Below, piece by piece: positions 47,706-60,764 of a stretch of 64,000 nt of DNA. The notes beneath the pieces were generated by a model, which was given only the letters and a program-made list of their open reading frames with translations, was not told where the DNA came from and ran no database searches. The DNA lies in NCBI RefSeq assembly GCF_025446935.1, contig NZ_JAOEGN010000008.1:18147-82146 (forward strand), in the 5' to 3' direction. A program made the translations under genes and the position numbers. This DNA is from Paracholeplasma vituli (GTDB taxonomy: Bacteria; Bacillota_I; Bacilli_A; Acholeplasmatales; UBA5453). The stretch's first letter is position 1, and every line of letters begins with the position of its first letter.

Positions 47706-47786
47706 AGGACGGATAACAGCGTATCTATAACGAAAATGCAACTCACGAAAAACTAAAACATGAAGAATAGAGGTAAAAAATATTGC

Positions 47787-47815
47787 TTGTATTTTAATGA
47801 ATCGTGCTATACAAT
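47787..47815 (+). promoter_or_regulatory. promoter of the TetR gene
   Basis: TTGTAT (47787-47792), 17 bases, TACAAT (47810-47815). The start site would be about 10 bases before the chosen ATG. Confidence 0.5.
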
Positions 47816-47831
47816 GAAATCGGTGATGACT

Positions 47832-48479
47832 ATGAATAAAGACACATACAGATATCCAAAGACGCCTTCAGGTATTAAGACATTTAATAAGATTGTAGCA
47901 ACCGGTAAAAAGCTATTTGCTAAGAATGGATTCCAAGCTACATCAATCAATGACATTATCGCTAAGTCGAAGATTGCAGCAGGAACTTTTTACATTTACT
48001 TCGACAGTAAGTTGGCTTTATATCTATATATTCTCGATTTATACAGAGTTTCAATTCGTAAAGCCAGTGCCGAAGCAACCAAAGGTATGTCTACCCGATA
48101 TGATATTGAACGTGCTGGGATTAAAGCCTTCATCTCCTACGCTTTAAAGGATCCGCTTGCCTATCGAATCATTTGGGAATCTTTATTTGTAGATTTCGAT
48201 ATTTTCAAGAATTACTATGAAAGCTTCGCCGATGCTTACATCAAGCATTTAAAGGAATTCGTTGAAAAAGGTGAAATTAGGGAGGATTTAGATCTCGAAA
48301 CTTTGTCCTACACACTTATGGGAATATCGAATTTCGTTGGATTACAAGTTATTTTTAAAGAGAATAAAGATGAATCAGAACTTAATCGTATTATCGATGA
48401 AGCTATGAGTATTTTGGACCAAGGAATATTTAAAAATAAGCGCGTAATACGAGAATATGTTCACATTAATTTCTATTAA
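47832..48479 (+). CDS. TetR/AcrR family transcriptional regulator
   Basis: The 215-residue protein has a helix-turn-helix near the N-terminus (KKLFAKNGFQATSINDIIAKSKIAAGTFY, where the recognition part is AKSKIAAGTFYIYF, about 37-50) and a helical ligand-binding domain. TetR regulators of this shape often sense acyl-CoA or lipids. I choose ATG 47832, preceded by GGTGAT; longer frames from 47760 start upstream of the predicted transcript. It is divergent from the thiolase operon, its likely target. Confidence 0.88.
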   Translation: MNKDTYRYPKTPSGIKTFNKIVATGKKLFAKNGFQATSINDIIAKSKIAAGTFYIYFDSKLALYLYILDLYRVSIRKASAEATKGMSTRYDIERAGIKAFISYALKDPLAYRIIWESLFVDFDIFKNYYESFADAYIKHLKEFVEKGEIREDLDLETLSYTLMGISNFVGLQVIFKENKDESELNRIIDEAMSILDQGIFKNKRVIREYVHINFY

Positions 48480-48500: not shown

Positions 48501-48533
48501 AAAAGCACCGTCTTATTTGACTGTGCTATTTTT
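48501..48533. terminator. bidirectional terminator between tetR and sipW1
   Basis: AGCACCGTC / GACTGTGCT stem (one C-T mismatch, 6-nt loop) followed by ATTTTTA on the plus strand and TTTTATTTTTA on the minus strand. Confidence 0.8.
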
Positions 48534-49178
48534 ATCGTTTTCAGCCTCTCTTCGGGCTTTCATCTCTGCTTCAAGTTCTAAACGTATACGTTCTTTTTCA
48601 GCCTTGATCCATTCATCTTTAGTAAGTTCATGTTCTGCCAACATTTTCTCTTCTTGTGCGTGACGCACCATTTTAATAAAGTTAACCATTTCGTGAACTA
48701 AGATAAACAGTAGAATAATGATAATGACGAGGAAGACAAGATTTTTATAGTTGAGTGTAATATTACCTATATCGAGTAACATAAAATTCGCTACCACAAT
48801 ACCGATAAAATTCTCTTCGGTGACATAGCCAGCATCGATAGCGGAATTGTTATCACCCTTTGTAACTAATCCTTCTTCAGTCGCTTCTATGGCTCTATGG
48901 ACAATGTTCTTATCCGTTCTAAAAGCGATGATAGGTTTACTACCAGCTTCTACATCGCTATAAACATCATCATAATCAATGTATTTAATAATAATGAATT
49001 CACCCGTCATAATGGTAGGTTCCATTGAACCCGACCCGACCACTGAATATGAGTAATTGAATATTTTGATATATCGATTTTCTTGCAGTGACATAGTCCC
49101 TATGACCAATAATAGAATCGAAGCTAGAAAGAAAAACACAGTCATTACCGATATCATTACTTTCATGACCCTTTTCAT
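48513..49178 (-). CDS. SipW-type signal peptidase I (copy 1)
   Basis: The 221-residue protein has membrane segments at about 9-28 and 141-160. The catalytic Ser is S51 in GSGSMEPTIMTGE, a His (H94, NIVHRAI) stands where bacterial type I enzymes have Lys, and D109 and D115 follow in KGDNNSAID. This Ser-His pattern is that of the ER/SipW class, which processes TasA-like fibre proteins. A charged cytoplasmic tail of about 50 residues contains AEKERIRLELEAEMK, also seen in the second copy at 52834. It has an AGGAGGTG ribosome site and lies 17 bases after the DUF2357-like gene. Confidence 0.88.
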   Translation of the reverse strand: MKRVMKVMISVMTVFFFLASILLLVIGTMSLQENRYIKIFNYSYSVVGSGSMEPTIMTGEFIIIKYIDYDDVYSDVEAGSKPIIAFRTDKNIVHRAIEATEEGLVTKGDNNSAIDAGYVTEENFIGIVVANFMLLDIGNITLNYKNLVFLVIIIILLFILVHEMVNFIKMVRHAQEEKMLAEHELTKDEWIKAEKERIRLELEAEMKARREAENDKNSTVK

Positions 49179-49195
49179 CTAGATTCACCTCCTTG

Positions 49196-51250
49196 TTATT
49201 CGTCTAAATTATCGATACTATCTTCTACCTTTTTAGGTTGTTTTGGTAAACCCTCTTTTTTCAATTTTTCAATTTCTTTAGTAGAATCTTTTTGAATATC
49301 GAGTAACGTCTTTTCTTGACGTTTAACCATCGATAATTTGAGTTTTTCAAAATCTTTGAAGAGTTTTTCTTGTTCTTTTTGGCGTTGTGCCTTAAGTTTC
49401 TTTAATAGACGCTCATGTTCAATTTTGGCTTTTTTACGTAGATTTGATACGACCAAACGATAATCGGCTTTGGCTTTCTTTTGTGCCTCAGCAATAGCCA
49501 GTTTTTCTTCGCGTTCTAGTTTCTTAAGTTGTTTTGCTTGTTCTTTTTCAATCGCTTCACGTTCAGCTTGGAAATGGCGGTCTAGCGTAGCAATCTTTTG
49601 ATCTAATTGACCTTGTAGCGTTTGTTTTAAAGTCTCAATAAGTGCATTGTTTTCTTCAATGGCTTTTTGAGTCTCAGCTGTGACTGTATCATCTACAATT
49701 TTCTTTTCTTCAGCTAATGCATCACGATTCTTATTAACAAGTTCTAAGTTATCTGTGAGCATCTGAGCTTCTTTAGCCGCAATGTCTTTTTGTTCCTTCA
49801 ACGCTGCTTCAATCTTAATACGTTCCGCTTCATCTTCAGTTTTCTTACGATACATGAGAATCAAACGTTGATTGGCTGCTTCAATATCTTTCATCAACTT
49901 ACGTTCTAAGCGAATGGCATTATTGTAGTCTACTTCTTTGGTTTCTCGAATGATTCTAGCAATTTTCGCTTTTTCCTTGCTGGCCTCTAAGTTTTTCTCT
50001 ACGTCGTCATCTTTAACAAGTCTAGAAAAGTAGTCATCATTCTCTTCTAATTCGAAGTGGTGTTTGAAAATAGCGTTGGTAATTGAAATCGTATCACGAA
50101 GCGCGCGCTTTAAACCGACTTCATAGGTTGAACTTCGTTCAACTTCTTCTTCAACACGTTTCTTGAATATTTTGATATTTTCTTGTAAGAAATATTGATT
50201 AATTCGTTCATCTTCAACGATGATGGGTTCTGGTGAATCTACGATATCATTGACGTGAATATTGGATATTCTGAATGCTTTTTTGATGATTTCTTTTTCA
50301 ACTATCTCATCATAAGATGGTTTTCTGACATTTTGATTGTACGCAACCATTGAGAATGTATTTAATGCCAATCTCTCTACAGCATCCTGATAAGATCTGT
50401 CAAATGTCATATCTTTTTCTTTAACAGTTACGTCATAAGCTAACGTGTTGTAACGGTCCAAGAATAGCCAAAGGACATAGCAGTTTCTAAAGTCCACGTT
50501 CTTTAAGATTACGTTGGTTTGCATGATTGGTGGTAATACTTTTTTCTCATTAGCCATTAGTGTCATAAAAGGCGAGTTACGAATCGCTGTAACACGCTTG
50601 GATAAGTATTCGACACGTTCCAAAATGCCTTTATTATAAATGTTGATGGATTTATCTTCAAGGTCTTCTTTAAACACGACATCCATGTTCAAATCGACTT
50701 CTAGGTCACTGATTTTAAAGTTTGATTGATAGTTAAAGTGCTTCTTTTGATAGGAGATGATATTATCTCTTATGAGGTCATGACGGCTTCTGACGAAGTT
50801 AAAAAGCCGTTCTATGAGGGTCATCACAAATCGGTTTTCATAAGTTCCATAGTCTACATCGGTCTCAGTGGTCATAATCTTCTTTGGCATCACGACCTCA
50901 TCGCGAATTTCACGAATAAAGTGGGTATGAGAAGCTAAATGACGAATCGAATTACTACGGATTTTTTTGGCCTTTTCTATGGGCACTATTTCTTCTAAGT
51001 ATTTTAACCCAGATTTTGGGTTTAATATGATTTTTTCAATGCTTGGGAAATAGGACTCAATGGTCTTAATCCACGTTTCATCAAAGGTCTTGGTTTCAGA
51101 CATACTCTTTTGATAAAGTGTGTTTTTGCCTGCCATGAGTGCACTATAAAAAGTCTTTGGAAAAGTTTGTGACTTTTCCAAATCTTTAATGGCTTGATCG
51201 TATGAATAGTAGTACTGACTTAATTTGTCTGTTTGTCTTTTTTTCATCAA
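49196..51250 (-). CDS. DUF2357-like protein with long coiled-coil tail
   Basis: The 684-residue cytoplasmic protein has two parts. Residues 1-350 look like the DUF2357 domain found in McrC-associated proteins (DVDYGTYENRFVMTLIERLF, given as TYENRFVMTLIERL near 135-148, and YVLWLFLDRYN). Residues about 395-684 are a charged coiled coil rich in Lys, Glu and Gln, ending VEDSIDNLDE. No PD-(D/E)xK nuclease motif is apparent. Its partner is the AAA+ gene 9 bases upstream. A scaffold for the ATPase is my inference; the DUF2357 call needs a profile search. Confidence 0.65.
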   Translation of the reverse strand: MMKKRQTDKLSQYYYSYDQAIKDLEKSQTFPKTFYSALMAGKNTLYQKSMSETKTFDETWIKTIESYFPSIEKIILNPKSGLKYLEEIVPIEKAKKIRSNSIRHLASHTHFIREIRDEVVMPKKIMTTETDVDYGTYENRFVMTLIERLFNFVRSRHDLIRDNIISYQKKHFNYQSNFKISDLEVDLNMDVVFKEDLEDKSINIYNKGILERVEYLSKRVTAIRNSPFMTLMANEKKVLPPIMQTNVILKNVDFRNCYVLWLFLDRYNTLAYDVTVKEKDMTFDRSYQDAVERLALNTFSMVAYNQNVRKPSYDEIVEKEIIKKAFRISNIHVNDIVDSPEPIIVEDERINQYFLQENIKIFKKRVEEEVERSSTYEVGLKRALRDTISITNAIFKHHFELEENDDYFSRLVKDDDVEKNLEASKEKAKIARIIRETKEVDYNNAIRLERKLMKDIEAANQRLILMYRKKTEDEAERIKIEAALKEQKDIAAKEAQMLTDNLELVNKNRDALAEEKKIVDDTVTAETQKAIEENNALIETLKQTLQGQLDQKIATLDRHFQAEREAIEKEQAKQLKKLEREEKLAIAEAQKKAKADYRLVVSNLRKKAKIEHERLLKKLKAQRQKEQEKLFKDFEKLKLSMVKRQEKTLLDIQKDSTKEIEKLKKEGLPKQPKKVEDSIDNLDE

Positions 51251-51259
51251 TTAAACACC

Positions 51260-52801
51260 TTAATTCATCTTCTTAAGGTCATTAATAAAGCTAATACATT
51301 CTTTAAATACGTTCTTACCAAATAACTTATCGAGCAATACGATCAATTCGCTCATTTCGTCTTGTAAGAACGGTAAGTTCAAGACTTCGAACTTTCTAAG
51401 GATCTTTCTCGCTACCATATAGTCTAATGCTTCATATTCAGTACCACCACAACCAACATAAATAGGTGTGAACAGTTTGATTTGTTTCATAATACGGTTA
51501 CCAAAGGTGATCTTGAATTTTTGAGCAATGAAATCGTCTAATTTACCTAAGTTATCCAATGCTTTTGGCGAAATTGGATGTGCTTTCCAGGCTGCATCAA
51601 ACAGAGTTTTCAAATACTCATGACTCATCACAACGCCCTCGGTATAAGGTGCATCGACAAACTCAGCTTTTGAGTTCATGATAATCGATGATGCACGGTC
51701 ATATACTTTATCCGTAATGGTGAAAGTCGAGTCATCTTTATTCGCTGTACCAATGAACCAAACGTTTTGTGGAACAAGAATTTTGCCGTCTATAAAGTGC
51801 TTAGGGTCAGAAGGTTGACGGTCCGATACAACGTCAATCTTCCATTCTGCTTCATTTGGCATTTCCATGATGGATAAGAATTCAGCAAAATAGTACTCAA
51901 TACGGGCTAAGTTTAATTCGTCTAAAACGATGAAATTTAAGTCTTCACGGTATGTCGTTTCATAGAGTTCTTTTAAGAAGTCTGTTTCATTAAACTTCTT
52001 CGTAAATTCGTTTAAATAACCAATCATTTCGGCTCTATCACGCCAGGACGGTTGAACAGAGATTATCGCTGAGTCGTGTCCGAAAAATTTGCCCATAGCA
52101 TAAGGCAAACTGGTTTTACCTGTACCGGAAATACCTTCAAGAATCAAAATCTTTGAAGAGGCCATCCCAGCAAAGAATGTTCGAATAATTTTTTCATTAT
52201 AATAAAGATTGAGTCTAGAAGCTGAGAAGTTAATGAATCTATTCACGAGTTCTGGTAGACCAATCGTGTCTTCTGGAGTCATTTGAATTGAGGTAATTAC
52301 ATTACGATACGCTTCATCAACTTGGGTTAATTTCGCAAAACGCGTAGGCCCCACAACTTGAGGCGTATTTTTGGGTTGGTCTGGTTCTTTACCTGGTAAG
52401 GATGAAGAGGCGGATGCACCACCTAATTTAAGCATTAAAATCTTATTCTTTTCATCAGCAAGTTCAACTGTTTTTTGTGTTAATAAAGCGACTTCCTCAA
52501 GAAGTTTATCTTTATCCATTTCCGTTTTAATGAAACGGATATAAACACGAAGTAATTGGTAGATTTTGAGAGTAAAGAAAACAATAAAAACCATATTAAT
52601 CCCAAGGATTAGTATGGCGATAAACCAGTCGAGGAAGCCAAATTTGGCACTCGCATCGACAAGATCTTGAAAATAAACACCAATGTCATTAAAAAGTAAA
52701 TCGGCAAATGCTTGTGTTAATCTGTTAAAGAATTTGCCGATGTTTTCGAAAAAATTTCTAATAAACTCGATGTAATAACGAGCAAAGTTAACCATCGTCA
52801 T
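51260..52801 (-). CDS. membrane-anchored McrB-like AAA+ ATPase
   Basis: The 513-residue protein has an amphipathic N-terminus, a membrane segment at about 58-80, a short coiled coil to residue 125, a Ser/Pro/Gly linker and then an AAA+ module of the McrB type. Walker A is GISGTGKT (223-230), Walker B FIVLDELNLAR with D294 and E295, and sensor 1 GTANKD (351-356); DRASS follows as arginine-finger region. Typical McrB is a cytosolic restriction GTPase, whereas this one is tethered to the membrane and lacks a DNA-reading N-domain. It is translated from an AGAGGT site and flanked by signal peptidase genes. Confidence 0.82.
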   Translation of the reverse strand: MTMVNFARYYIEFIRNFFENIGKFFNRLTQAFADLLFNDIGVYFQDLVDASAKFGFLDWFIAILILGINMVFIVFFTLKIYQLLRVYIRFIKTEMDKDKLLEEVALLTQKTVELADEKNKILMLKLGGASASSSLPGKEPDQPKNTPQVVGPTRFAKLTQVDEAYRNVITSIQMTPEDTIGLPELVNRFINFSASRLNLYYNEKIIRTFFAGMASSKILILEGISGTGKTSLPYAMGKFFGHDSAIISVQPSWRDRAEMIGYLNEFTKKFNETDFLKELYETTYREDLNFIVLDELNLARIEYYFAEFLSIMEMPNEAEWKIDVVSDRQPSDPKHFIDGKILVPQNVWFIGTANKDDSTFTITDKVYDRASSIIMNSKAEFVDAPYTEGVVMSHEYLKTLFDAAWKAHPISPKALDNLGKLDDFIAQKFKITFGNRIMKQIKLFTPIYVGCGGTEYEALDYMVARKILRKFEVLNLPFLQDEMSELIVLLDKLFGKNVFKECISFINDLKKMN

Positions 52802-52833
52802 CGTTCTTACCTCTCAAAATAAATAATACAGAG

Positions 52834-53541
52834 CTATTTGTTTTGTTCTTTTTTAAGTTCTTCTAATAATTCTTTTCTAATACGTTCTTTTTCAGCTTCT
52901 AACATGACTTCTTTATCGGTTGCATGTTTAGCTTCAATCTTTTCTTTGTTAACAGCAAGTAATGTCTTAGTTAAGACAAATCCTTGATACGCTAATAGTA
53001 ATACTACAGGTAAGATAACGAATAGTGCGAATCCTACTGGGGTTTGTAGGTAATTTATCGCCCCACCTAAACCATTGATATGACCAGTTCTAACCGCTTT
53101 AATGTTCGCGTAAGTCACAACTTCATATTGAATCCCCGTATTATCCCCACCAGGGACATATTGAGCAGATGCTGCGGCTTTGTCACCTTGAGTAACTACA
53201 TAGTTTTCAGATACATAGACTATTCTGTGAGTGTTAATTGCATTTAATGATGCATCAAAGAATGTAATAATATCGCCAATTTCAAGATGTTTCTTATCAT
53301 CTTCGTCAAGAATCTTGACAAAGACTAAAGCACCCTTATTAAAAGAATCACTTTCGGACCCTTCCATTGAGTCACTAAGAACTGGCAAGAAGCCCCTTCC
53401 CATAATATTAGCTATATCGCCTTCACGTTTAATACTCAAATTTGATATAGAAAATAGTAATAAAAGAAATATTAATCCATAAAACAGTACATTACCTGTT
53501 ATTTTTAAAGCCTTTTTAATATTGTTCTTAGGTTTATCCAC
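52834..53541 (-). CDS. SipW-type signal peptidase I (copy 2)
   Basis: From GTG 53541 the protein has 235 residues. It has an N-terminal membrane segment (about 16-34), the Ser motif LSDSMEG, a His in INTHRIV in place of the bacterial Lys, and Asp in TQGDKAA, then a second membrane segment (about 170-190) and a charged tail AEKERIRKELLEELKKEQNK. I prefer the GTG because AAGGGAG lies 9 bases before it; the ATG at 53574 has no ribosome site. It is the first gene of the block that ends with sipW copy 1. Confidence 0.85.
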   Translation of the reverse strand: MDKPKNNIKKALKITGNVLFYGLIFLLLLFSISNLSIKREGDIANIMGRGFLPVLSDSMEGSESDSFNKGALVFVKILDEDDKKHLEIGDIITFFDASLNAINTHRIVYVSENYVVTQGDKAAASAQYVPGGDNTGIQYEVVTYANIKAVRTGHINGLGGAINYLQTPVGFALFVILPVVLLLAYQGFVLTKTLLAVNKEKIEAKHATDKEVMLEAEKERIRKELLEELKKEQNK

Positions 53542-53651
53542 TAGACACATCTCCCTTTTAGACAACGTTTTCACTAATACAATTATATTATATTATTTGT
53601 CTAAAATCTAGTATCAATGAGATTATCGTGTAATTCATTCAATTAAAGATA

Positions 53652-53677
53652 AGGTTTGCATGTTTCCATGCAAACCT
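53652..53677 (-). terminator. perfect hairpin after the major surface-protein gene
   Basis: AGGTTTGCATG / CATGCAAACCT (11 bp, 4-nt loop). On the minus strand it is followed by TTATCTTTAATT, which is T-rich but not a clean run. It may terminate weakly or protect the 3' end of the mRNA. Confidence 0.6.
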
Positions 53678-53700
53678 CTGGTAATTATGTCTTTACTTAG

Positions 53701-54684
53701 TTAAGCAGTAAACTTCATTGATACACTTAGTGTTGTTGAGAAAATAGCATCGAATAAGTCAGCATCCCAACCTTCAATCCATACTCTTGCAATAATAGTT
53801 CCATTATAATATCCGGTACCACCGGTTTGTGCTAAGACAACTAAGTTTTGTGCAGTTCCAAGGTTTCCAACAGCGTCTAATTGTGTTGCGTCTTGAATAC
53901 TTGCTGTAGATCCATCAACTGGGGTTCCAGTCTTGACTGCATAATAACTAGCTGCACCAAACTGTTCACTAGTTGCATATGAAACGGCTGGTAATGCTGT
54001 TGAATTGTATTGAGTACCATTTGCGTATGCACTTTCTACAGCATCAACTGTACCACGTTGATATGTAAATGCAGGTGTTGCAGCTGCATTATCTGTTACA
54101 TTGATAAAGGAAACTCTTGCAGCAGTCCATGCTGCTACTTGCATTGTATTACCTGGTACTAATGCTTTCGCTTCAGCGAATGCAGCATTATTTGCTGCAA
54201 AGAATGGAATATCTACTGTCCAAGCTGTGCTTGAACCTGTAATTTGTAGTTGTGAAAGCTTAATTGTTTTTACTGCAGCAGATCTAAAGAATAGTTTGAA
54301 TTCAATATATCTACCATCAAGTGCTCCAGATGGTGTTAAAGCACCTAATGAATCTCTAACGTTCATAACTTTACCATTAGCTGATGTTACATCTTTAAGT
54401 GCTAATGATGATCCATACATTTCAGACAATCTTGCAGTGATTGCTGCTGAAGGAATTACTGTATACCATGTTGGAGCCTGTGAACCTGTAATGGTAGCTT
54501 CATTGCCTTCCCATGTACCTAGTGAAACTTCAATACCTTCACCTGCTGTAACATTTGCACTAAACTGACCAACGCTTGCAGCATTTTGAAGTGTGAACCA
54601 CGCGAAGGTTGATGTACCTAAAGCAATCACGACTAATGCCATCGTTACTACTGATAAAACTAATTTTTGAGTTAATTTTCTCAT
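53701..54684 (-). CDS. TasA/camelysin-like secreted surface protein (putative major subunit)
   Basis: The 327-residue protein has a signal peptide of the SipW-substrate type: RKLTQKLVLS, a hydrophobic helix, then GTSTFAWFTLQNAAS (about 23-37), resembling the GT-x-AYF cleavage region of TasA and CalY. The mature part is rich in Ala, Thr, Ser and Gly, low in Cys, as expected for beta-rich fibres. It ends with VWIEGWDADLFDAIFS, a signature shared with the next two upstream proteins. It is last in the riboswitch operon and its leader has an A-rich GGGG ribosome site. Confidence 0.75.
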   Translation of the reverse strand: MRKLTQKLVLSVVTMALVVIALGTSTFAWFTLQNAASVGQFSANVTAGEGIEVSLGTWEGNEATITGSQAPTWYTVIPSAAITARLSEMYGSSLALKDVTSANGKVMNVRDSLGALTPSGALDGRYIEFKLFFRSAAVKTIKLSQLQITGSSTAWTVDIPFFAANNAAFAEAKALVPGNTMQVAAWTAARVSFINVTDNAAATPAFTYQRGTVDAVESAYANGTQYNSTALPAVSYATSEQFGAASYYAVKTGTPVDGSTASIQDATQLDAVGNLGTAQNLVVLAQTGGTGYYNGTIIARVWIEGWDADLFDAIFSTTLSVSMKFTA

Positions 54685-54765
54685 TTTCTTTTTTCCCCTT
54701 TTTTGTTTGTTTTTTTATTTCAATTTTATGTCATATCAATTACGATTGTAATCAATTTGAACCCT

Positions 54766-55734
54766 TTAATCAATAGGTAATGCCCCTTGAAACTCGAATC
54801 TAAATAATAATGTATCCATATAGATCGCATCAAACGTATCTGCGTCCCAACCTTCAATCCAAATATTTAATAGAAATCTACCCAAATAGTAAGGTCGATT
54901 TTGATCATTAACTTGATCTGTTTCGACTAATTCTGCAACCTTCGAGTTTGAATCTAGCGGTTGATATGGGTTTCTTTCATCAAACAAGGATAGTCTTTCA
55001 ATGACAGGTTGTGGTTCAGTTGGTAAATTGAAGTGAATCAATTTAGCCTTACTGAGATAATCTAAACTACCATATGTCTTACCATAGCCCCTTTCAGGGT
55101 TTTCGGAAGGATCATATATGAATCGAGCAAGTTCACTGGTATCTCTTGTATCCAAGGGATTATCGGTTTTCATTTCGATTACTGAAACCCTAATTGCGTC
55201 TTTGGCATAATAGATTCTAGTTTCATTCTCGAACACTGTGTCGTTGGGTCCATATAAATACGTTATCGGACTCCTAAATGTTACACCGCGTGAAGTGACA
55301 TAGGTACCACGGTTTGGTGCACTTTCATAAGTAATGTTTGAACTGATATTATTGACTAGATAAACATGATTATATCGCGTCGTTGTTCTAACATATAGTT
55401 CTAAAGCTATATAGTTTTTATTCGGTATGCCCACAAATGTTAAATCAGATTCTAACAGTGGCAAGCGATTCCCAATAAAAGTGATGCCGTCTGTGGATGT
55501 TAAATCCAAAAGCTTAGCGTCGTTCCATATCTGATTGATCTGGGCCGTCGTGATTTCATTAGACCAGTTAATGCCGTCTAATGAAAATTCTAAGTTACTG
55601 TCTTGCTTCATGGAGATTTGGATGCCGTCAACCCGGTTGGTTTCCGCCATACTCACCCAAGCGAATGTTGCTGTTGTGAAGGTCAATGTGAGGAGGATCA
55701 TCGATAGCGTCGTAATGTAGATTTTCTTAATCAT
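54766..55734 (-). CDS. TasA/camelysin-like secreted surface protein (second member)
   Basis: The 322-residue protein starts MIKKIYITTLSMILLTLTF and TATFAWVSMAETN (about 20-32), again a SipW-type signal region. The mature domain is Asn- and Tyr-rich. The C-terminus has NIWIEGWDADTFDAIYMD, nearly identical in sequence to the one in the 53701 product, and at DNA level the 17-base run TCCCAACCTTCAATCCA is identical in both. It begins 4 bases after the stop of the 55739 gene. A minor subunit or anchor is likely. Confidence 0.72.
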   Translation of the reverse strand: MIKKIYITTLSMILLTLTFTTATFAWVSMAETNRVDGIQISMKQDSNLEFSLDGINWSNEITTAQINQIWNDAKLLDLTSTDGITFIGNRLPLLESDLTFVGIPNKNYIALELYVRTTTRYNHVYLVNNISSNITYESAPNRGTYVTSRGVTFRSPITYLYGPNDTVFENETRIYYAKDAIRVSVIEMKTDNPLDTRDTSELARFIYDPSENPERGYGKTYGSLDYLSKAKLIHFNLPTEPQPVIERLSLFDERNPYQPLDSNSKVAELVETDQVNDQNRPYYLGRFLLNIWIEGWDADTFDAIYMDTLLFRFEFQGALPID

Positions 55735-55738
55735 CGCA

Positions 55739-56476
55739 TTAAGCCGCGTTTCTGATTGAGAACTTCATATCAATTTTAATGCTACCGCGTTCCATATTTG
55801 GTGTTGTGTCATAACCTTCTATCCACATAAACACCGTAAACTTTAAAATGCTGTTGACTTGAAATTTATCCACGCTTTCGCTAATGATTGGGTCCCTTTG
55901 GTAATTACTACTTAAGAACATCTTAGCTTCAGGCATTCTTTCTGGATATTTATCAATTGGTGAATCCACAGGGTCAGGTTTCATATACATCGTTTGTGTT
56001 CTCGGTAAATCCGTGTCTACGCGTTGGACAATGATCATAATTCGAATGTACTCATCTAATGACAGCGTGACATCGTTGATGTTCACTGTATAGAGGAGGT
56101 TAATCATTTCGAACCCGACATTTCGGATGTAAAATGAATAGGCTACATAGTCCTCAGTTTTTTGAGTAAAGAGTCCGTTAGCATTGACTGCCCCTTCAAT
56201 ATCGATATGGTCGTACGTGGTTTCATTAGACTGTTCTTCAGGATCCACATATAACCGTGAAGTTCCTTTTTCAAACGACTTATCCGTTGACATCTGAATG
56301 CCTTTTTGAGTGGCTTCTTCATTCATCGAGATAACGAATGTCCCAGTCGATAAACCATAAAATGTGACAACCCCAAATCCGAGTGAAAGCAGACCTGATA
56401 TGATAACGCCTAGCGTTAAGAATCTAGCCGTCATTGTGGTTGTCTTCTTGATCCCAAGAACGGTTGAAAGTCTCAT
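55739..56476 (-). CDS. secreted surface protein with WIEGYD signature (first gene after riboswitch)
   Basis: The 245-residue protein has an N-terminal hydrophobic segment (about 17-37) and GLSTGTFVISMN following it, a weaker version of the SipW-type site. The mature part ends in TVFMWIEGYDTTPN and IKIDMKFSIRNAA, so it carries the family signature in shorter form. It is the first gene of the operon controlled by the c-di-GMP riboswitch. Function is inferred from company: surface fibre or its assembly factor. Confidence 0.65.
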   Translation of the reverse strand: MRLSTVLGIKKTTTMTARFLTLGVIISGLLSLGFGVVTFYGLSTGTFVISMNEEATQKGIQMSTDKSFEKGTSRLYVDPEEQSNETTYDHIDIEGAVNANGLFTQKTEDYVAYSFYIRNVGFEMINLLYTVNINDVTLSLDEYIRIMIIVQRVDTDLPRTQTMYMKPDPVDSPIDKYPERMPEAKMFLSSNYQRDPIISESVDKFQVNSILKFTVFMWIEGYDTTPNMERGSIKIDMKFSIRNAA

Positions 56477-56636: not shown

Positions 56637-56665
56637 ACTATACACCCATCAAAAATAAATGTCAA
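56637..56665 (-). promoter_or_regulatory. promoter of the riboswitch operon
   Basis: TTGACA (56665-56660), 17 bases, TATAGT (56642-56637) on the minus strand; transcription would start about 25 bases before the aptamer. Confidence 0.8.
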
Positions 56666-56684: not shown

Positions 56685-58109
56685 TTATAAATCGATTAGT
56701 TTTGATAAATCGGTTTCTTTATAGTATGTTTTTAAATTCTCAAATGACATTGGGCGGGCAAAATAGAACCCTTGGACAATGTGAATATTATAGCCAGTAA
56801 TGGTTTGTAACATTTGTTGGTTCTCAATGCCTTCAGAAATAATTGTTTTTTGGTTCTTCTCAGCAAATTCAACCAATAAGGTCACAAATCTTGATTTAAC
56901 ATATGAATGTTCTTCGTTTAAGAACTCTTTGGACAACTTGATCGTATCAAGTGGCATCGTTTCGAGTTTCGCTAAGGTTGCGTAATCTAATCCAAAGCCA
57001 TCGACAGCGAACTGGAAGCCTAATGCTTTAAGTTGCGTGATGTTTTGTAAGACAACCCCATGGCGATCAAACAGTGCGAACTCGACGATTTCTAAGATGA
57101 TGTTTTCCGCATTCATCTTATACTTCTTTAATACACGTTGAAAATCAACCGCTAAGGTTTCATTCATCAATTGTTTCGGACTGATATTAAATGTGAACTT
57201 AATGTTCGATTTCGGGAAACTTTGTTTGAATTCATAATAACTCTTAATTAAGGATTCAAGCCCCCATAGACCTACCCAGTAAATATCACCGGACTGTTCC
57301 ATTATGTTGATGAACTTGAACGGGGATAACAACCCGTGTTCTGGGTGATTCCATCTTAACAAGGCTTCAACGCCATAGATTTCTTTGGTTTCGATGTTGA
57401 TGATTGGATGGTAATAAAGCAAGAATTCTTTTTTCGCAATCGCATTTTTAATTTGATAGTAGTAATCTAGGAATTCACTTTCGGTTTCGCTCATATCTTC
57501 ACTGTAAAGACGAATCGCGTTCCCACCGGTTTTCTTAACTGTATAGTTGGCTAATTTCAAGGAATTCATGAGTGCTTTGGTGTTTTCACCATGCATTGGG
57601 TAATAGGCAATAGAGATGGATGAAGTTAAGTTGACATCAGTAGAACCGAACAGTGTTATCGTTTCATTGATCTGTTCTTGAATTTTTCTCGCAAATTCAA
57701 CAGCATCAGATTGGTCAAATTCCATCGGCATGAACATTAAGAAGATATCACCTTCAAATTTCGAAGCTTTCACTTCTTTTGGTAAGGCACTACGTATACG
57801 TTTGGTAATCTTCTCAATAATTTTATTCGCTTCTTTTTCACCGAAGGCTTGAATGATTTCAGTAAAACGGTCGATATCGACATAAATGAGTGAGAACATG
57901 TTGTCCTTACCAATTTTGGAGATGTAGTTGGATATCATGCTATTCATAGCGGATCTAGAAATAATACCTTCAACTAAAATGGATTTTTCTTCTTTCCATT
58001 TTTGTTCAGCATATTTCCAGTTTACGTATAGAAAATAGGCGGCTACCGAGGTCGCAATCATCATAAACAACATGAGTATGACGGCCGTGGTTGGGGATAT
58101 ATTATCCAT
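56685..58109 (-). CDS. GGDEF-EAL protein with degenerate active sites
   Basis: The 474-residue protein has one N-terminal membrane segment (about 8-28), then a GGDEF-like domain (about 70-205) and an EAL-like domain (about 220-460). The GGDEF motif reads EGDIF, and the EAL domain keeps EALLRW but changes DDFG to DGFG and the following IKID to IKLS. Both activities are probably lost, so it may sense c-di-GMP or act as a partner. It is 4 bases downstream of an EAL gene with an intact signature and about 20 bases upstream of the riboswitch promoter. Confidence 0.85.
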   Translation of the reverse strand: MDNISPTTAVILMLFMMIATSVAAYFLYVNWKYAEQKWKEEKSILVEGIISRSAMNSMISNYISKIGKDNMFSLIYVDIDRFTEIIQAFGEKEANKIIEKITKRIRSALPKEVKASKFEGDIFLMFMPMEFDQSDAVEFARKIQEQINETITLFGSTDVNLTSSISIAYYPMHGENTKALMNSLKLANYTVKKTGGNAIRLYSEDMSETESEFLDYYYQIKNAIAKKEFLLYYHPIINIETKEIYGVEALLRWNHPEHGLLSPFKFINIMEQSGDIYWVGLWGLESLIKSYYEFKQSFPKSNIKFTFNISPKQLMNETLAVDFQRVLKKYKMNAENIILEIVEFALFDRHGVVLQNITQLKALGFQFAVDGFGLDYATLAKLETMPLDTIKLSKEFLNEEHSYVKSRFVTLLVEFAEKNQKTIISEGIENQQMLQTITGYNIHIVQGFYFARPMSFENLKTYYKETDLSKLIDL

Positions 58110-58113
58110 AGGG

Positions 58114-60651
58114 TTACCTCTTTCTTAAGAGTGATGCGGTTCTATCTATATTATATGCTTTTAATAGGGCAATTGCATCCTCATATTTCATGGCTTTACC
58201 TAAATAGAAGCCTTGAATGATGTCAGCGCCACTCTTTTGTAAAAACTTAAATTGTTTGTCATCCTCAACCCCTTCAGCAATAATTTCAAGGTCAAGGTTC
58301 TTAGCTAAGGATATAATCATATTAATAATCGCGCGCGAGTGTTTATCCGCAGTGGAGTGTTTGACGAACTCTTTATCAATTTTAATCGCGTTGATTGGCA
58401 GTTCTTTTAAGTATAAGAGAGAGCTATACCCTGTACCAAAGTCATCTAAGTGAATATCGAAGCCTTTGGATTGTAAAAGTTTGAGTTTTTCAATGATGAT
58501 ATCAAACGAGGTCATCAAGAAGGTTTCAGTGATTTCAATCGAAATCGAGTGTTCTTTCAATCCATATTGCTCAAAAGCATTGACAAGTTCACTTACGAAG
58601 CCGGCTTGTAATATTTGAACTGGAGATACGTTCATCGAAATCTTTATGTCATAGGATTCCAATTCTTTCGCTAATTTGAAAGTTTCATTCATAACGATAC
58701 GACCAATGTCGATAATCATGTTATTGTTTTCTGCAATCTCAATGAACTCAGAAGGGGAATCGAGTTTATATTTCGGGTTATCCCATCGTACTAAGGCTTC
58801 AAAGCCCACAATACGTTCTGAGTTTATGTGATATTGAGGCTGTAAGTACATGACAAATTCATGGTGTTCAATCCCTGCCATCATGTCGGTTTCAATGACT
58901 TGTCTTCTCGATAAACTTTGACCAAAAGTGACATCGTACACAACTGGTTTATTACTATGGAACGCGTCCGCACGTGTAAGCGCGAGAATCGTATTGTCAT
59001 AAACTTGGTCTTCATTGATTGAAACATAGGCGTCACTATCGATGTTAAATTGACCAATTCTAAATTGTAAGACAAACTTATTCTTATCGACATCAATTGG
59101 TTTTTCAAAAGCTTCTGCTAAACGGTCAGCCCAAGCATCGATATCGTCATAGCTTGATAAATTTTCAAATAAAATCCCGAAACGGTCAAAGGAAACGTGG
59201 TATAAAGAGGCTTGATACGTATTAAGCGTTTCTTTTACGGTTTTCGCTACATAGACTAAAACTTCACCGGAAAGTTTCTCACCGATGACTTTGGTGATAT
59301 CGCCATACTTAAAGATACCAAATATAACCAAAGCATTACGGTGTTTGAAGCGCTTAGGATCTTCAACAAGCGACTTCACATCCGCTTTCATATAGTTCAT
59401 ATTCGGCTCATTGGTGATGTTGTTATAAAACGCGATTTCTCGATGGTATTTATAGGTTTCTTCAAGTTTAGTAATATCATCCCCAACGAGTGCGTAGGTT
59501 AGTGCGTAACGAATCGGGATGAAACGGATGTAAACATCCCCACTTGGAATGCTGAATTTCGCAACAAATGGTTCTTGTTTTTTAACTTTTTCAATCGCTT
59601 CTGTACCGCCATCTCGGAGGTTAATATCTGCGACTACTTTATATTTTTTGTAGTTTTTGATTACACGTTTAAAACTAGCGTTATAATAGAAAATTTTACC
59701 TTTAGAGTTCACTTTTAGAATATAAGGCTTTACGTAATAGTGAATCAAACGGGCTGATTCGATATCTTCGGTTTTAGATTGGATGATGCGATAAACGGCG
59801 AACATACTAGACATGAATACAATCATGATGATGATGAACGCGAACATCAAGGTGTTGGATAAGAACGCCATCGAGTCTAAAAGATCATAATAGTTGATGA
59901 CTTGACCAAAATAGATGCCATCTCCAGCTTCAATGGATTGAAGTTTCGTATAAGCGAAGAAAGAGGGTTCATTGAAAATATTGTATTGACCTACACCAGA
60001 CATGGTATTTGTGGTATTCAGCGTGTTAAAGAACTTAGTGCGGTCGTCTTCACTGAATACCCCACCAAATGGTTTTGTGTTACGTTCTAACCCTTCATCA
60101 TAATAGGTATAGCCATCCTTATGGATGAGAACGTAACGATAATTTAAGACATTGTATGCACTTAAAATGGTATCAAAAAAAGCTTTCGCATCCACCAAAG
60201 AAACCACATTTTGGTAACTGAAAGCGACATAAGTCGTATCTTCTGTATAACCTTGTAATATTAAGGATAATGGGTAAATCGAAATATCTTGTTTGTAGTA
60301 AGTGTTTGAATCATAATCTGGTTTAAATAGATAATCTACACCATTAATTCGTAACCCCGTACCCGTGTTGAGTAAAACCAAATCATAACTTTGATCGGCT
60401 GTGAGTTCAACCACAGGGTCTAACCCGTCATCGACATAGTCATCGACCATGTCAACAAATGTTTCATACGTACGATTCAAAGTACCTTCGACACGAGCAG
60501 AAATCCCTAGATTGAACGTTTCAAAAGAGTCTTCAGCACGTGAAGATATGAAGTTTCGTGTAATCGAAATGTAAAAAAATACTAGGATAATCGATAACAC
60601 GAGAAACAGTGATGTAAATGTAGCGGCTAAACGAATTTTGTAGCGTCCCAT
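58114..60651 (-). CDS. membrane c-di-GMP phosphodiesterase (sensor-GGDEF-EAL)
   Basis: From ATG 60651 the protein has 845 residues: a membrane segment (about 10-32), an extracellular sensor domain of about 250 residues (Cache-like by position), a second membrane segment (near 285-305), a linker/PAS-like region, a degenerate GGDEF (FDRFG in place of GGDEF) and a C-terminal EAL domain. The EAL catalytic set is intact: EALVRW, MNVSPVQ, IEITE, LDDFGTGYSSL, IKIDKEFV and IAEGVE. It should hydrolyse c-di-GMP. I choose 60651 because GAGGT lies 10 bases before it and the longer frame lacks a site. A weak -10 TATACT lies at 60707-60702. Confidence 0.88.
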   Translation of the reverse strand: MGRYKIRLAATFTSLFLVLSIILVFFYISITRNFISSRAEDSFETFNLGISARVEGTLNRTYETFVDMVDDYVDDGLDPVVELTADQSYDLVLLNTGTGLRINGVDYLFKPDYDSNTYYKQDISIYPLSLILQGYTEDTTYVAFSYQNVVSLVDAKAFFDTILSAYNVLNYRYVLIHKDGYTYYDEGLERNTKPFGGVFSEDDRTKFFNTLNTTNTMSGVGQYNIFNEPSFFAYTKLQSIEAGDGIYFGQVINYYDLLDSMAFLSNTLMFAFIIIMIVFMSSMFAVYRIIQSKTEDIESARLIHYYVKPYILKVNSKGKIFYYNASFKRVIKNYKKYKVVADINLRDGGTEAIEKVKKQEPFVAKFSIPSGDVYIRFIPIRYALTYALVGDDITKLEETYKYHREIAFYNNITNEPNMNYMKADVKSLVEDPKRFKHRNALVIFGIFKYGDITKVIGEKLSGEVLVYVAKTVKETLNTYQASLYHVSFDRFGILFENLSSYDDIDAWADRLAEAFEKPIDVDKNKFVLQFRIGQFNIDSDAYVSINEDQVYDNTILALTRADAFHSNKPVVYDVTFGQSLSRRQVIETDMMAGIEHHEFVMYLQPQYHINSERIVGFEALVRWDNPKYKLDSPSEFIEIAENNNMIIDIGRIVMNETFKLAKELESYDIKISMNVSPVQILQAGFVSELVNAFEQYGLKEHSISIEITETFLMTSFDIIIEKLKLLQSKGFDIHLDDFGTGYSSLLYLKELPINAIKIDKEFVKHSTADKHSRAIINMIISLAKNLDLEIIAEGVEDDKQFKFLQKSGADIIQGFYLGKAMKYEDAIALLKAYNIDRTASLLRKR

Positions 60652-60764
60652 ATCGATGTTTACCTCGGACTTATAAAGCTTAGAATGAATTGTGATGGTT
60701 AAGTATAGACATACTTCAAAAAACATCCACTTGATGTCTTAGATGTATTATATATTTTATTATA

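Follow-up and report, generated by a model that had tools for sequence, protein, structure and literature searches.

A conserved surface-fibre-type locus of Paracholeplasma vituli that unites TasA-like proteins and Ser-His signal peptidases with a membrane-linked McrB-type NTPase and its DUF2357 partner

The closest described relatives of the locus reported here, which lies in a stretch of 64,000 nucleotides from Paracholeplasma vituli, a relative of the wall-less Acholeplasma bacteria (contig NZ_JAOEGN010000008.1; this whole stretch is called the window), are the CoCoPALM systems. This class of ATPases was named by Bell et al. in 2024 from its link to signal peptidases, and it combines an McrB-type nucleoside triphosphatase (NTPase), with an NxD (often NxDD) motif and an N-terminal membrane segment, with a DUF2357 partner containing a coiled coil and with signal peptidases (PMC11090510). 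Section 7 of that paper names no substrate and no cyclic di-GMP (c-di-GMP) protein and defers the systems to a later paper, and the word “TasA” appears 0 times in its main text. Three of the four CoCoPALM features considered are present in the P. vituli locus: an NxD NTPase, a DUF2357 protein with a coiled coil, and associated signal peptidases; in contrast to what that section gives, its cargo, cargo swapping and likely regulators can be named. A preliminary description of this DNA, made from the sequence alone, had proposed a candidate new system; it is not wholly new, because the ATPase class had already been named and linked to signal peptidases (PMC11090510). The locus is real, conserved and of the surface-fibre type, and represents a variant within the CoCoPALM class. 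Its novel features are the TasA-type cargo, its probable swapping, the putative c-di-GMP receptor/phosphodiesterase pair, and the missing nuclease.

Other known systems share parts of this gene content. The tapA-sipW-tasA operon of Bacillus subtilis likewise places a SipW-type peptidase beside subunits with SipW signals, and a donor-strand fold is suggested for one of the proteins studied here; however, the Bacillus operon as described in PMC9674648 contains one peptidase, no NTPase and no DUF2357 protein, and the TasA-like proteins of the window have no significant sequence match to TasA. CoCoNuT systems resemble the locus in their NxD NTPase, coiled coils and a DUF2357 protein that is able to lack a nuclease, and their nuclease-less cases, according to PMC11090510, always have another nuclease gene nearby. 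McrBC, a Type IV restriction system, also pairs an McrB-type NTPase with a DUF2357 protein; here, in contrast, the partner has no detected nuclease family and the NTPase has hydrophobic segments where McrB has its DNA-binding domain. In the LapD/LapG/LapA type of c-di-GMP control of adhesins, a degenerate GGDEF-EAL membrane protein is found beside surface protein genes, as in the present locus, which differs by its NTPase pair. Among the papers listed by searches of one literature collection, none, judged by its title, describes the locus, its TasA-like cargo or the c-di-GMP link; of those retrieved for CoCoPALM, only Bell et al. and its preprint fit by title.

The preliminary description listed seven genes on one strand with no unrelated gene between them, and the listing of open reading frames (ORFs) bears this out: seven ORFs, all on the minus strand, occupy positions 48513-56476. 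From T3 to SipA, the gaps between them are 4, 81, 126, 32, 9 and 17 bp, the largest (126 bp) lying between T1 and SipB. The extent of the system was underestimated: the seven genes stand, but a hairpin and a conserved pair of same-strand GGDEF-EAL genes, by which the block extends upstream (56685-60726), had been missed. The resulting gene order EAL2-EAL1-T3-T2-T1-SipB-AAA-DUF2357-SipA, in which AAA denotes the NTPase, recurs across the order Acholeplasmatales, and its core is also present in further families within the class. Since the cluster is conserved among relatives, chance is excluded as its source.

A scan of genome contigs gave 29 loci from named genomes, in which the gene order of the window is kept as far as the contigs reach. 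Near the AAA gene, a T gene is found in 29/29 of these loci, a Sip gene in 28/29 and an adjacent DUF2357 gene in 18/29; seven of the 11 loci without an adjacent DUF2357 gene (L033, L034, L035, L037, L039, L042 and L047) show the downstream T3 of another copy, and L046 is cut by the contig end. When 160 genomes from the order were searched at E<=1e-10, the AAA profile matched 99, with paralogues of 900 amino acids (aa) included. At E<=1e-20, it matched 83 of 392 genomes in a sample requested at the phylum level, all 83 from the same class or nearer, although this sample may not have held other classes. Among 21 related genomes, T3 is present in 11 and the DUF2357 gene in 13 (both in 11, DUF2357 only in 2, T3 only in 0, neither in 8; Fisher p 2.2e-4, a statistic that ignores kinship).

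To describe the neighbourhood, 79 AAA rows were scored from profile matches in regions chosen by hand rather than at random. After removal of nine rows that were truncated or belonged to other types (L102, L108 twice, L131 twice, L137, L138, L170 and L181), the count covers 70 membrane-type AAA genes, a set that overlaps with the 29 loci. A DUF2357 gene adjoins 65 of the 70; the five others are first copies of duplicated loci (L146, L148, L150 and L153) and a separate locus (L115). A Sip gene occurs within 9 kb on the same strand in 58/70 (the window has two), a TasA-like or SipW-signal protein within 9 kb in 55/70, and both together in 54/70. In 11 loci (L101, L103, L104, L107, L110, L112, L113, L159, L162, L164 and L165), hereafter giant-type, a protein of >2,000 residues is found instead. 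Among the remaining five, L153 has TasA-like genes without a Sip gene, the stretch of L132 stops 282 bases short of the AAA gene, and L173 encodes small secreted-looking proteins missed by the profiles; the real exceptions are L136, with a peptidase and no cargo, and L179, with a DUF2357 gene and no profile match. Altogether, a TasA-like, SipW-signal or giant protein lies within 9 kb in 66/70, or 69/70 if a peptidase alone is counted. Therefore, the ATPase pair goes with surface proteins, not with restriction genes. In 54/70 loci, a membrane McrBC-like pair, with no nuclease detected, is thus an integral part of a surface-fibre-type locus, as had been proposed, and the block is not found mostly apart from TasA-like genes.

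The NTPase gene (51260..52801) encodes 513 aa; its true start, like that of the DUF2357 gene, is perhaps a few codons downstream of the listed one, where the orthologues begin. Two hydrophobic segments (residues 50-68 and 70-88) are followed in the sequence by a charged, Glu/Lys-rich stretch; the fourth CoCoPALM feature is an FtsB-homologous transmembrane/coiled-coil domain fused to the NTPase. The Walker A and Walker B motifs, the sensor motif N354-x-D356-D357, R369 and R436 are invariant in 21/21 aligned rows. In a profile search of the PDB, E. coli McrB (6hz4, E 6.4e-4) was the sole match at E<=0.001. The AAA_5 family (MoxR/dynein-related) gave E 0.028 for the protein of the window, below the Pfam cut-off, and matched 19 of 21 relatives at E<=10. 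The Pfam scan matched no DNA-binding domain, and no FtsB/DivIC family is among the Pfam matches listed (25 of 36 families). The PADLOC candidate model PDC-M26A matches all 21 AAA proteins; because its best stretch in the window protein (194-318) falls within the AAA domain, these matches are read from the sequence as domain kinship rather than defence.

The DUF2357 protein, which resembles the N-terminal part of McrC (49196..51250, 684 aa), matches PF09823 at E 3.6e-11 and is predicted to contain one long helix of ~245 residues near its C-terminus (417-662), consistent with a coiled coil. Its AlphaFold model is poor (predicted template modelling score 0.35) and consists of mixed parts and this helix; the best 50 rows of a fold comparison with it are long helices and chains of unrelated proteins, McrC not being among them, and this comparison is uninformative. 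No McrC was returned by a PDB profile search with the DUF2357 alignment either, an absence from which nothing is concluded. Among 12 DUF2357 partners, PF09823 was found in 8 and no other Pfam family, no nuclease and no VWA family at E<=0.1. In particular, Pfam detected the PD-(D/E)xK nuclease expected of an McrC homologue in none of the 12, the fold of the middle part being poorly predicted. Likewise, neither an McrC nuclease nor an adjacent nuclease gene, of the HEPN or any other family, was detected in the nine locus proteins scanned (the seven genes and the two EAL genes). A plain restriction system was considered and is held unlikely, given the cargo linkage in the 70 loci and the lack of a detected nuclease in the 12 partners. 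Elsewhere in the same genome, on contig 13 (L102:6785-11102), a distant 913-aa AAA protein with several hydrophobic stretches accompanies a 536-aa DUF2357 protein with zinc-ribbon-like Cys pairs, beside a DUF262-like protein (all three features read by eye); this AAA/DUF2357 pair may be a true defence relative.

SipA (48513..49178) and SipB (52834..53574) are signal peptidases of the Ser-His (SipW/archaeal) type. Both score above the curated TIGR02228 cut-off of 51.85 bits (60.3 and 52.7 bits, respectively), and in each a Ser-Met-Glu and a His-Arg site can be read by eye, in agreement with the preliminary description. With the Bacillus SipW model NF046067, they reach 55.3 and 68.9 bits, both below the cut-off of 190. 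In the whole genome, TIGR02228 matches only these two proteins at E<=0.001, both within the locus. Each ends in a charged, helix-like tail, predicted to be cytosolic, with a common AEKERIR-type motif; related loci often have charged peptidase tails, and more rarely the exact motif. These tails are a possible docking site for the NTPase pair.

The proposed substrates are T1 (53701..54684), T2 (54766..55734) and T3 (55739..56476). None has a Pfam family match at E<=1, and T1 and T3 have no NCBIfam match at E<=1; for T2, a single weak match to an S-layer model (E 0.0088) falls far short of the cut-off. The TasA/camelysin family PF12389 has no match anywhere in the genome at E<=0.001, and neither it nor cognate_SipW matched T1-T3 of the window at E<=1. 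Within the 20-member T1 family, two proteins match PF12389 (best E 0.029) and one matches TIGR04088 (E 0.47). The sequence T-F-A-W-F-T in the signal region is invariant in 20/20 T1 rows, and the T2 alignment has a SipW-type signal region and an invariant W-x-E-G-W-D. A motif W-I-E-G-[WY]-D near the C-terminus is common to T1, T2 and T3 of the window, and T3, in its family alignment, has one match in the whole genome, namely in the locus. For the predicted T1 model, the TasA fibre was the top Foldseek row, not significant; in VIA, the top rows were FimA and TasA, followed lower down by the Sulfolobus 0406 filament and the Pyrobaculum bundling pilus. The model thus weakly suggests that the T1 fold is nearest to donor-strand filament subunits, TasA among them. 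The label TasA-like, used in the preliminary description, is kept because of the signal region, the C-terminal motif, the SipW-type neighbours and the weak T1 fold match, and lacks a family match behind it.

The two genes upstream encode GGDEF-EAL proteins, the membrane protein EAL1 (56685..58109) and EAL2 (58114..60726; hydrophobic segments 30-61 and 282-317), which match PF00563 at E 9.4e-56 and 1.2e-63, respectively. In the window, both proteins carry a degenerate GGDEF motif; GGDEF domains number 20 in the whole genome. In EAL1, the EAL motif DDFG is altered to DGFG, and its second Asp, a catalytic residue, is lost from EAL1 in 20/20 adjacent EAL1-EAL2 pairs, the window included. Three of 30 profile-labelled EAL1 rows keep the Asp (the second EAL of L112, L122 and L123), none within an EAL1-EAL2 pair. 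The rows labelled EAL2 retain K, D and D in 25/25. From these residues, EAL1 would be a c-di-GMP receptor, and EAL2 a sensor and c-di-GMP-hydrolysing phosphodiesterase. Outside the order, an EAL-type gene is found near 10 of 29 membrane-type AAA genes.

The pair is not specific to TasA-like fibres, since the 11 giant-type loci lack TasA-like genes. The genome of the window has a second AAA-DUF2357 pair (C38, contig 38; L101 and L143), which follows a 3532-aa protein and then a degenerate GGDEF-EAL protein. The 3532-aa protein (L143:8617-19212) has a hydrophobic segment at its C-terminus and 12 domains of the Cadherin-like family PF12733 (E 1.4e-126), and next to it lies an ORF of at least 2833 aa (L143:94-8595), which ends in a dockerin-like stretch by eye. 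Among the giants of giant-type loci, this 3532-aa protein was scanned for domains and the ends of those in L144, L112 and L164 were inspected by eye; in the giants of L143, L144, L112 and L164, the final hydrophobic segment is followed by a basic tail. An EAL-profile gene is near 6/11 giant-type loci (L101, L103, L104, L112, L113 and L165), and L107, L110 and L164, read gene by gene, have an ORF of 419-442 aa in its place. A third type has two AAA genes around the DUF2357 gene (L108 and L131), followed in L108 by a transglutaminase-like protein (PF01841) and a repeat-rich ORF. Duplicated TasA-type loci additionally encode three SipW-signal proteins and one giant protein, about 2000-2360 aa long; for example, in L033 (11537-20734) they follow the AAA gene together with a 2362-aa protein, the one such giant scanned, which had no Pfam match at E<=0.001. 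One genome carries both a TasA-type and a giant-type locus (L163 and L164). In a tree of 69 AAA rows, giant-type and SipW/TasA-type contexts are clustered and change more than once, with the root and several deep forks unsure, so cargo has probably been swapped between contexts. Because the pair stands by TasA-type, giant and repeat/transglutaminase-like proteins, it looks like a platform for several kinds of surface protein.

The tandem AAA genes of the third type are almost identical at the DNA level in their 3' parts: in L108 (7332-8684 and 10490-11926), the last 1112 bases are identical, and in L131 (6999-8381 and 10226-11659), 998 of the last 1000 bases are, whereas the membrane parts at the N-terminus are different. 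Seen in two families, this looks like ongoing gene conversion, and it suggests mixed rings.

Several features of the operon bear on its expression. A 12-bp hairpin between T1 and SipB (53651..53678, minus strand) is predicted to stabilise the mRNA or act as an attenuator. In T1-SipB spacers of at least 40 bases, the hairpin beats 95% of 40 mononucleotide shuffles in 31/34; elsewhere, the same test gave 15/26 for T2-T1 (weaker hairpins with shorter, AT-rich stems), 3/10 for SipB-AAA and 15/20 for EAL1-T3, where many hairpins are then followed by U runs and are terminator-like, which is not so in the window. In 14 loci with a common stem base, both partners of the T1-SipB base pair have changed at positions 3, 8, 9, 11 and 12; the stems were aligned from the base by script, and as each is the best-paired stem, the selection leans to pairing. 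When 20 T1-SipB spacers were aligned with MAFFT, the hairpins fell out of register and no consensus structure emerged. Because these hairpins mostly lack a U run, a stabilising or processing role is likelier than termination, by analogy with pilin operons. The covarying hairpin behind T1 suggests that T1 is the major subunit. Ahead of T3, a promoter-like site on the minus strand (TTGACA-17-TATAGT, 56637..56665) matches in 11/12 positions and is the best of 62 in the region, a total only ~1.6 standard deviations above shuffles. Downstream of SipA, a TetR-like regulator gene (by eye; 47760-48479) lies on the opposite strand of the window, and one is found at the same place in L041.

With about even confidence, we propose that the locus makes and controls a TasA-like surface fibre, in which the NTPase/DUF2357 pair, with no nuclease detected, drives or holds assembly, likely under c-di-GMP control. 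SipA and SipB would cut the subunits while docked on the NTPase complex via their tails; T3, the predicted base or anchor, would start the fibre, T1 would polymerise by donor-strand exchange, and T2 would join as a minor subunit. EAL1 would bind c-di-GMP and relay its state to the NTPase, and EAL2 would hydrolyse it. The NTPase is envisaged as a membrane-linked hexameric ring whose pore accommodates the DUF2357 domain, the long helix serving as lever, stalk or scaffold; this ring would drive or hold assembly from the cytosolic side, and it may assemble, anchor, pull or extrude the fibres. As the same pair is also found next to giant surface-type proteins where SipW is lacking, its broader function is probably the gating, anchoring or pulling of surface proteins at the membrane, and not TasA polymerisation as such. 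More tentatively, a membrane-anchored McrBC machine without a nuclease could have become, in wall-less bacteria and their relatives, a c-di-GMP-gated motor of general use for displaying, assembling or pulling surface proteins, one that exchanges its cargo among TasA-like fibres, giant cadherin-like adhesins and repeat proteins.

A different reading, which we consider rather unlikely, regards the pair as a mechanical link that pulls, rotates or tenses ready-made adhesins and fibres, for control of adhesion or for movement. It would account for the presence of the same pair beside both small SipW-signal proteins and giants, such as the one with 12 Cadherin-like domains, and for the long DUF2357 helix, the charged peptidase tails and the basic tails of the giants. 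However, in most loci the pair stands between the two peptidase genes (SipB-AAA-DUF2357-SipA), an order that links it with the processing of signal peptides, and we know of no motility in acholeplasmas. A little less probable still is a MoxR-type factor acting, with no mechanical role, as a chaperone or in the maturation of membrane peptidases and surface proteins. The weak AAA_5 matches agree with this, as do the peptidases that are the nearest neighbours of the pair in TasA-type loci, but in giant-type loci no SipW peptidase stands beside the pair (1/11 has a Sip gene, in L112 at the far end, cut by the stretch end), and MoxR partners typically carry VWA domains, a family with no match in the 12 DUF2357 proteins. 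A Type IV restriction or anti-phage system located by chance in a surface-fibre operon is very improbable: the PDC-M26A matches, McrB as the sole PDB match and the distant 913-aa paralogue near a DUF262-like protein are outweighed by the partner retained in 65/70 loci, the surface-type neighbours in 66/70 (69/70 with a peptidase alone), the hydrophobic segments of the NTPase and the lack of a nuclease family in the partners and locus proteins scanned.

For the fibre proposal, the mechanical role of the NTPase is the central testable question. Donor-strand fibres are generally taken to form with no input of nucleotide energy from the cytosol; a dedicated NTPase, if true, would change this picture and would be the first demonstrated case of such a fibre being powered by a cytosolic NTPase. 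CoCoPALM would gain a concrete cargo and a testable job, as a restriction-type machine turned to surface biology. The proposal, if true, would also give a role to the c-di-GMP proteins of acholeplasmas; for A. laidlawii, a 2008 paper noted 14 that contain GGDEF and/or EAL domains (PMC2408644).

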